A stretch of 64,000 nt of DNA from an uncultured Clostridia bacterium (GTDB lineage Bacteria > Bacillota > Clostridia > TANB77 > CAG-508). Every line of letters begins with the position of its first letter. Position 1 is the stretch's first letter. Position numbers and translations under genes: made by a program. The stretch is taken from the NCBI GenBank assembly GCA_947628085.1, contig CANQYM010000003.1:1-64000 (forward strand), given 5' to 3'. The notes under the pieces are model-generated. The model was not told the DNA's origin and ran no database searches. It saw nothing but the letters and a program-made list of their open reading frames with translations. This document shows, one piece after another, positions 2,978 through 39,594 of the stretch.

Positions 2978-3697
2978 TTATAATTTTAAAGTTGTTTCTA
3001 ATGCTAGTTTTATCATTTCATTCATTGAATTTTGTCTTTGCTCTGCAGTTAGTTCTTCACTTGTGCATAAAGAATCTGAAACCGTTAATAAGCAAGATGC
3101 ATTTTTTCCTAAATGTTTTGCTGTGAAAAATAATGCAAAACTTTCCATTTCTGAACCCATTAAATTATATTCTTTTGGAAGTCTGTTTAAAAATTGTTGT
3201 GGGTCATCTAAGTATGGGTCAAAACATTCTGTGCATGCCATATTTCCTTTTACATATCTTTGATTTAACTCTTTTGCTGTTTCTTCTATTTTTTCATTTA
3301 AATAAGAAGATGATTGAACCATATGGCTTTCAGTTCCTGTCATATTTTTTGCGAAATTTCCTTCTGTATATGCATTATCTACTAAAACTATATCTAAAAC
3401 TTTTAAATAATCTACATGTCCTCCACAAGAACCTATTCTAATAATATTTTCTACTCCGTAAAATTTATATAATTCATAAGAATAAATTCCTATGCTTGGC
3501 ATTCCCATTCCAGATGCCATTACTGTTATTTCTTTTCCTTTATATTTCCCTGTAAAAGCATACATTCCTCTTACACTATTTACTAGCTTATAATCTTCTA
3601 AAAAATTTTCTGCAATATATTTTGCTCTCATTGGGTCTCCTGGCATTAAAACCGTTTTTGCTATTTCTCCTAACTTTGCTTCATTATGAACTGCCAT
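2978..3697 (-). CDS. deoD: Purine-nucleoside phosphorylase
   Basis: DeoD-like sequence: MPGDPMRAKYIAENFL, IRIGSCGG, GSEMESFALF. Confidence 0.93.
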   Translation of the reverse strand: MAVHNEAKLGEIAKTVLMPGDPMRAKYIAENFLEDYKLVNSVRGMYAFTGKYKGKEITVMASGMGMPSIGIYSYELYKFYGVENIIRIGSCGGHVDYLKVLDIVLVDNAYTEGNFAKNMTGTESHMVQSSSYLNEKIEETAKELNQRYVKGNMACTECFDPYLDDPQQFLNRLPKEYNLMGSEMESFALFFTAKHLGKNASCLLTVSDSLCTSEELTAEQRQNSMNEMIKLALETTLKL

Positions 3698-3845: not shown

Positions 3846-4012
3846 TATTTTACTGTTATGCTTATATATTGTTTTATTTCATGACTTGGTGTCGCAATCT
3901 TCTTTTTTTAAAATAATCAAAATGAAGATTGCTCCAATCGCCCTCCGCTTACACTTCGGTTGGTCGCTTACGCGTCATTCATAAAACAATATATAATCAT
4001 AGCAGTAAAATA
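3846..4012 (+). repeat. Palindrome-flanked repeat element, copy A
   Basis: Core CTTGGTGTCGCAATCTTC...GAAGATTGCTCCAATCGCCC...GGTTGGTCGCTTACGCG is shared with 39320..39480 (inverted); flanking arms are locus-specific inverted repeats. Confidence 0.88.
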
Positions 4013-4055
4013 CTCTACAAATTATAGATTATAATTTATAATTCGTAAATCATGA

Positions 4056-4122
4056 CTTACAACTCACAGCCTATAATTTATAAGTCATAAATTACAGCTT
4101 ACAACTCACAGCTTATAGTTTA
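4056..4122. repeat. Imperfect direct repeat (~25-nt unit, 42-nt offset)
   Basis: CTTACAACTCACAGCCTATAATTTA (4056) and CTTACAACTCACAGCTTATAGTTTA (4098). Confidence 0.75.
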
Positions 4123-4201
4123 CAAGTTACAACTTCTTATAAAATTAAATAATGAACTCAAAATACTAATCTCTAGCATTTCAAGTTCATTTTAAATTCA
4201 C

Positions 4202-5017
4202 TTATGCTGTTTTTAAGTCTAAACGTAGCTTATCTGCTATCATTGCTATAAATTCTGAATTTGTTGGCTTGCCTTTATTAGAATTTACAGTATATCCAAA
4301 TATGCTTTCAACAGTTTCTATTTGACCTCTATTCCATGCTACTTCTATAGCATGTCTAATTGCACGTTCAACTCTTGAAGGTGTTGTTTTATATTTCTTA
4401 GCTAAATCTGGATAAAGTTGTTTAGTTATTTGATTAATCACTTCAATATTATTTACTACCATCATTATTCCATCTCTTAAATATTGATATCCTTTTATAT
4501 GTGCTGGAACTCCGATTTCATGAATGATGTTTGTAACTTTTATTTCTAAAATTTCTTCTTTTGTAGCTTGATTATTAATATTTATATAATTTGGTTTTAT
4601 ATCTTTTATAACTAGTGGTTTGTTTAATTGCTTAGGTTGTGGAACATTAACTAACTCTCTTATTCTTTTCATTAAAACATCCATCTTAAAAGGTTTTAGA
4701 ATATAATATTGCGCTCCTAAATTTATAGCTTGTGTTGTAACTGCGTCTTGTCCAACAGCTGATAACATAATGCAAATAGGCAATTCAACATTTGAAGATA
4801 TTAGCTTTTCTAAAACTCCCAATCCATCCAAATGTGGCATAATAACATCTAATAATACCACTTGTGGTCTTTCCATTATTATTTTATTATAGGCTTCTTG
4901 CCCATCTTTAGCTGTTGCAACTATTTCTACATCTTCTTGTGTATTAAAATATGTAATTAATGTAGAAACAAATTCTAAATTGTCATCTGCTATAAGAATT
5001 TTGATTTTTTCGTTCAA
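4202..5017 (-). CDS. spo0A: Sporulation master response regulator Spo0A
   Basis: Receiver domain ([23 protein letters not shown]) plus Spo0A C-terminal DNA-binding domain ([21 protein letters not shown]). Confidence 0.96.
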
Positions 5018-39157: not shown

Positions 39158-39319
39158 TTGCCTCACTCCCTTCAAACAATAGATTTATTATATACTGAAT
39201 TATAAAAAAATACAAGAAAAATAAGTTGAATTTAAACTTAGAATTTTCTCATAAATTATTTTAAGTTTTATAATTTTATAATCTTTATTTTTTAAATTCT
39301 TATTAAATTCTTATTTCTA

Positions 39320-39480
39320 ATTCTTATGATATTTATATATAGCTTTAGAAGTGCCGCGTAAGCGACCAACCGAAGCGTAAGCGAAGGGCGATTGGAGCAA
39401 TCTTCCTTTTGTTTATTTTTAAAAAAGAAGATTGCGACACCAAGGCACGCAATAAAGCTATATATAAACATCATAAGAAT
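39320..39480 (-). repeat. Palindrome-flanked repeat element, copy B
   Basis: Same core as 3846..4012 in inverse orientation; 28-nt outer arms ATTCTTATGATATTTATATATAGCTTTA / TAAAGCTATATATAAACATCATAAGAAT with 1 mismatch. Confidence 0.88.
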
Positions 39481-39594
39481 TACGACATAAGTATTAATTT
39501 TTTAGAATAGTTAAATAAATAAAAAAATGATAAAGCAATTTTTTAAAGAAGTTTTAAAAATTCATTTTACTCTAAAAAAATTGCATAAAAAATC

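Follow-up and report, generated by a model that had tools for sequence, protein, structure and literature searches.

The intergenic region between spo0A and deoD of an uncultured Clostridia bacterium holds a repeat (copy A) in which a conserved core is set inside a long palindrome, and the question raised by this locus is which part of such a repeat is mobile and how arms that differ from one locus to the next stay matched to each other. The window, i.e., the whole stretch of DNA that was analysed (64,000 nucleotides), includes copy A and a second copy (copy B) as follows:

2978..3697, - strand: deoD (purine-nucleoside phosphorylase), neighbour of copy A, NCBIfam TIGR00107 above cut-off
3846..3885, + strand: left arm of copy A, one strand of a 35-40 bp stem whose partner is 3974-4012, with an inner GTCAT/ATGAC stem followed by a small internal loop
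3886..3973, + strand: conserved core of copy A (88 nt), recognised by recurrence across its own genome and relatives
3894..3932, + strand: core hairpin P3, GCAATCTTC (3894-3902) pairing with GAAGATTGC (3924-3932) about an A/T loop, with covariation across species
3934..3963, + strand: core element P2, formed by CCAA...TTGG; an inner pair covaries (C-G/A-T)
3966..3973, - strand: GCGTAAGC, nearly invariant in the alignment, a potential GNRA-type mini-hairpin
3974..4012, + strand: right arm of copy A, pairing with the left arm
4202..5017, - strand: spo0A, neighbour of copy A, NCBIfam TIGR02875 above cut-off
39319..39355, + strand: arm of copy B, by self-complementarity
39356..39443, - strand: core of copy B, 94% identical to core A
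39444..39482, + strand: arm of copy B, by self-complementarity

The positions and sequences that the initial annotation gave for the core, its hairpin and the palindromic arms held on re-examination, and the placement of copy A between spo0A and deoD is upheld by the NCBIfam models that identify both neighbours. The recurrence of the core at 39.3 kb in the opposite orientation is borne out by a 20-mer with exact matches at 3924-3943 (+ strand) and 39386-39405 (- strand), for which the chance expectation is 0. The arms of copy A (3846-3877 and 3981-4012) are 94% paired (30/32), and none of 200 shuffles folds as well as the element does as DNA (z = -8.6). Copies A and B are the only ones in the window; a third lies just past its end (G000:C3:65401, where G000 is the window's own genome and G001, G019, G075, G104, G158, G278, etc. 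are relatives). To the right of copy A, positions 4016-4135 form a degenerate A/T-rich direct repeat with units like TTACAACTCACAGCYTATAATTTATAAGTCATAAAT; this type of repeat is also noted in G001 and is absent from the spo0A-deoD intergenic regions of the other species that were compared.

A search of the core against the whole genome and related Clostridia, as had been suggested, returns many further copies: at least 40 in the window's own genome by BLAST at ≥89% identity (at least 41 after a re-scan), 42 in G001 and 27 in G019. Covariance model R1 has matches in 76 of 241 genomes of the order, all within the window's own family and in 14 of 41 genera. With a pattern scan, at least 100 stretches from uncultured gut Clostridia were found to have the core, the sources including rabbit, mouse, chicken, sheep and goat metagenomes, and no viral contig had it; phage, plasmid and IMG/VR records gave no matches, and words of the core sequence were not found in published papers. 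All copies of G000 are intergenic and randomly oriented with respect to neighbouring genes, with 24 of the 41 between co-directional, 13 between divergent and four between convergent genes. A role as terminator was rejected, since this distribution shows no preference for gene ends. Tandem arrays of two to three cores, spaced about 145-200 bp, occur in G019 (L063 and L108) and G027 (L049), the last of these being located, like copy A, between spo0A and deoD and having a diverged core. The left flank of another G000 copy (L028, C1, about 35.9 kb) is a G/C-richer, structured-looking stretch that by eye is like a raiA-type RNA.

Two helices of the core covary across species with Watson-Crick pairs, and the covariation score is 0.367 versus 0.156 in shuffles, with none of 500 shuffles reaching it. 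The inner pairs of P3 are CG, TA or GC in different species, while the outer pair of P2 is A-T in 88 and C-G in 88 of about 184 copies. The sequences GCGTAAGCGACCAA, GCG.A.TGGAGCAA and TTGCGAC (minus strand) between the helices are near-invariant; as such stretches, including GCGTAAGC, were partly in the search pattern of the wide set, their invariance there is partly due to selection by the search. Two sequences, GCGTAAGC and GCGAAAGC, may be extra-stable DNA mini-hairpins. Covarying helices, an invariant linker and a GNRA-like GTAA loop on the minus strand would also suit a functional non-coding or cis-regulatory RNA family, in which compensatory selection keeps the long closing stem. This explanation is improbable, as Rfam covariance-model scans with own-genome and wider copies returned generic long-hairpin microRNA models or chance matches only and none to a bacterial RNA, orientation is random relative to genes and flips between genomes, and the residual arm mismatches (28 G-T and 26 A-C) reveal no RNA-strand-specific pairing.

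The arm palindrome spans 35-40 bp at almost every copy, with self-complementarity scores of 24-40 compared to maxima of 8-14 in nearby control DNA (one control excepted). Left and right arms of one locus mismatch at 7% of positions versus 38% between loci in G000 (33% in G019); thus, arms that are locus-specific yet self-complementary, as the initial annotation anticipated, are found at nearly every copy. Positional sequence information in the arms is almost nil more than about 12 nt from the core, i.e., past the inner GTGAC and a TT at -11/-12, whereas pairing holds to about -36. The core and not the ends is conserved, as was claimed, and the copies of G000 are in this respect unlike a MITE with conserved terminal repeats. 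The further claim that the arms of copies A and B are unrelated is not sustained: copy A (...TTATGCTTATATATTGTTTTAT..ATGAC) and copy B (...TTATGATGTTTATATATAGCTTTAT..GTGCC) both fit a degenerate pattern of the family. Paralogous copies with unrelated outer flanks have arm sequence in common, and 109 locus pairs lie at a distance of ≤0.25 for arms versus one for control flanks (40 versus one at ≤0.2). Thus, the arms belong to the element and have diverged.

Arms with so little positional information past about 12 nt might instead be captured target sequence, if each insertion copied the local target in inverted form. Such capture would accord with two sites (L038 in G001 and L031 in G019) at which one arm without any core is present in a relative; however, the L038 break has TATAAAA microhomology as expected of a deletion, and microhomology deletion explains at least this single-arm case. 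Capture is very unlikely because arms of unlinked loci resemble each other far more than flanks do, and a dozen copies of G075 have common 54-bp arms ending TTCAAGTTTCGAC with different flanks and target duplications, evidence that also leaves the proposal of inverted target duplication in the initial annotation without support.

The ratio of both-arm to one-arm changes is 11:34 in the close pair G000-G001, 37:16 in G000-G019 and 59:5 in G001-G019. Mutation first and matching later, together with the equal frequency of G-T and A-C mismatches, indicates DNA copying between arms and not selection for RNA pairing. The arms differ through drift and through copying from one arm to the other; they are not separate targets captured anew at each site. 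Individual arms have further features: at L243 both arms include about 45 nt of unusual sequence, with a TIR3-like end on one side of it and the inner arm on the other, and one arm at L266 in G001 has about four tandem copies of its outer part (TTTCTATAAATTCTTATAGAAT), a sequence that is single at the orthologous locus of G000 (L026).

The extent of the mobile unit is apparent from copies in relatives. In G075, 8-9 bp target duplications lie outside the arms in 11 of 12 copies, a level that cross-copy comparisons reach in 1 of 132. G278 has other ends (GTAACNGTTCAG), with 8-bp duplications in three copies (7 or 8 of 8 matching), two of which are perfect. Terminal repeats are shared and sharp in both of these genomes and degenerate in the window's genome, where copies are mostly old. 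The outer arms of G104 are arrays of REP-like GGGGTCGGTCC units, which are likewise found in G158, and essentially every arm pair found in G104 encloses a core, with one core-less remnant (L373). Given duplications outside the arms and arm pairs that enclose cores, the arms and core together constitute the mobile unit; the same two findings argue against the earlier suggestion that an element inserts at the apex of existing hairpins.

A related possibility, that only the core moves and that it homes to the apices of palindromes or hairpins already in place, would account for the same core inside arms with different outer ends (TTCAAGTTTCGACTTTTTGC, GTAACNGTTCAG and the REP-like arrays), for cores that are more alike than arms and for core variants that change at loci with unchanged arms. 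These changes are, however, patches that retain the A/T loop and not whole-core replacements, and the core-less L333 of G075 still has its target duplication, as if derived from a complete copy by deletion. With the target duplications outside the arms and the near-absence of empty arm pairs in G104, homing of the core is improbable.

The target duplications suggest a DDE-type mover for the copies of G075 and G278. A search for a transposase with ends like these found none: in a sample of 195 genomes of the family, which did not include the genome that carries the TIR3 ends, those ends had only five weak matches. Y1 transposase (PF01797) is present in G019, G104, G158 and G075 and has no match in G000 or G001. 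RAYT as a general mover was rejected for the window's genome, which is without a detectable Y1 transposase. Clean pre-insertion sites were not recovered: the majority of absences have the look of imprecise deletions, and G001 copies absent in G000 are mostly lost by deletions larger than the element. The comparison with orthologous spo0A-deoD regions lacking the element, also proposed at the outset, identified element-free regions in five relatives (G019, G068, G016, G063 and G012), all too diverged for the breakpoint to be placed.

Comparison of orthologous loci, paired by their flanks (29 for G000-G001, 13 for G000-G019 and 17 for G001-G019), reveals that the core is flipped at 14, 7 and 8 of these, respectively, while the arms stay with the locus. 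Compared between species, these fractions are close to half, the expectation for randomised orientation. Copy B is one such case, its core being inverted relative to the flanks in G001. In 10 of 12 informative flipped pairs the asymmetric inner internal loop has turned together with the core, a result that places the crossover in the outer arms. Template switching between the arms explains both the core flips and the both-arm changes.

Inversion at about half of orthologous sites, and the 13 of 41 G000 copies between divergent genes, could also suggest a phase-variable element in which a site-specific recombinase flips the core and switches neighbouring genes. Like an inverton, the family occurs with both core orientations (14/29 orthologous pairs flipped, between genomes). 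Unlike an inverton, it has no common recombination site; arms differ by 38% between loci with only the inner 5 bp (GTGAC) alike, a divergence that a site-specific enzyme is not expected to tolerate, and no orientation preference relative to genes is detected. A recombinase switch is, therefore, highly unlikely. Hairpin loops between inverted repeats also flip repeatedly in chloroplast DNA, where the orientation of these minute inversions is without phylogenetic signal; those inversions lack a dispersed repeat family and a conserved loop.

Template switching between inverted repeats is described to cause arm homogenisation and spacer inversion (PMC8604942; see PMC8794818 for related work on hairpin maintenance). 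The same two outcomes, matched arms and an inverted spacer, are observed here. The published cases are from yeast genes with arms of 7-16 bp and spacers of 2-5 bp, whereas the present family has arms of 35-70 bp, a conserved spacer of 88 nt and dozens of loci affected at once in a bacterium.

Together, these results favour, with a probability of about two in three, a reading in which copy A is an old-established member of a MITE-like, non-autonomous family of mobile repeats confined to one family of gut Clostridia, with arms and core mobile together and template switching acting on the arms. The mobile unit is arms plus core, about 160-195 bp with no gene inside. Comparison among genomes shows that, where copies are recent, this unit has terminal repeats at its ends and target duplications of 8-9 bp on either side. 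In the window's genome most copies are old; they are inherited at intergenic sites that do not change and are gradually lost through deletions. The long inverted arms may let replication switch template between them, a switch that would copy one arm into the other, such that arms match within a locus and drift from those of other loci, and that would also invert the core.

This family is similar to MITEs in being short (about 165 bp), gene-free, intergenic and multi-copy (at least 41), with inverted repeats and with target duplications (8-9 bp in G075, 8 bp in G278). It differs in that the middle is conserved and not the terminal repeats, which vary between host species, and in its long arms, matched per locus, and flipping core. 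REPINs and REP sequences with their RAYTs (PMC3116915) share an inverted repeat that folds as a hairpin, an intergenic location and compensatory-looking stem changes, and the REP-like GGGGTCGGTCC arms and RAYT-type Y1 transposase genes of G104 and G158 extend the likeness. By contrast, REPINs conserve their ends and vary the spacer, the reverse of what is found here, and conserved REP ends are restricted to G104/G158-type copies, with none in the window's genome.

Median differences between G000 and G019 cores are 9.0% for orthologous and 9.0% for non-orthologous pairs, versus 24% and 39% for arms, which keep their locus identity. Core variants arise as patches at otherwise unchanged loci, e.g., GTGTC to GCGAAA in the G001 orthologue of copy A and also at L031, and the P2 block at L026. 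The core thus keeps a common sequence and a covarying fold even as the arms grow apart; in the least secure part of the account, this is attributed to selection on the core and patchy gene conversion between copies. The conservation of the core suggests that it may have a function, most likely in single-stranded or cruciform DNA form, and our guess is that it acts in the spread or persistence of the element. Loci of G104 with identical cores have arms that differ by 13.6%, which is beyond template switching alone and needs extra core homogenisation or arm change.

The core is found with at least two different terminal repeats. A portable structured DNA module, spreading between and homogenised within otherwise unrelated palindromic elements with different terminal repeats and movers, independent of the arms, is a rather unlikely alternative; such a core might be a hairpin parasite or a shared fold that every long-palindrome element needs to survive or replicate in these cells. 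If the module is truly common to elements with different movers, it would prompt one to ask what the apex of a hairpin needs to hold if a long palindrome is to last in a bacterial genome.

The repeat family is real and unusual, yet built from known kinds of DNA behaviour, the arm matching and flips being a known process on an unusual scale. It is widespread in gut Clostridia, and the analysis found no name for it; whereas mobile repeats usually conserve their ends, this family does the opposite. Its dozens of orthologous loci present inverted-repeat template switching genome-wide and, thus, a natural system in which to measure it.

Two minor observations concern the core. The core start alternates between TTGGTGTCGCAA, TTGGCGAAAGCAA and TTGG(T/C)GC(C/T)..AAAATC at otherwise unchanged loci (L102, the L031 orthologue, L094 and L063), a multi-base switch that might result from template switching inside the core. 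Two copies of G075 (L315 and L319) have an extra hairpin-like insert of about 50 nt (TGCTGTCCACTGTTAAAGC...) at the same core position; as their target duplications are intact, the enlarged element moved too.
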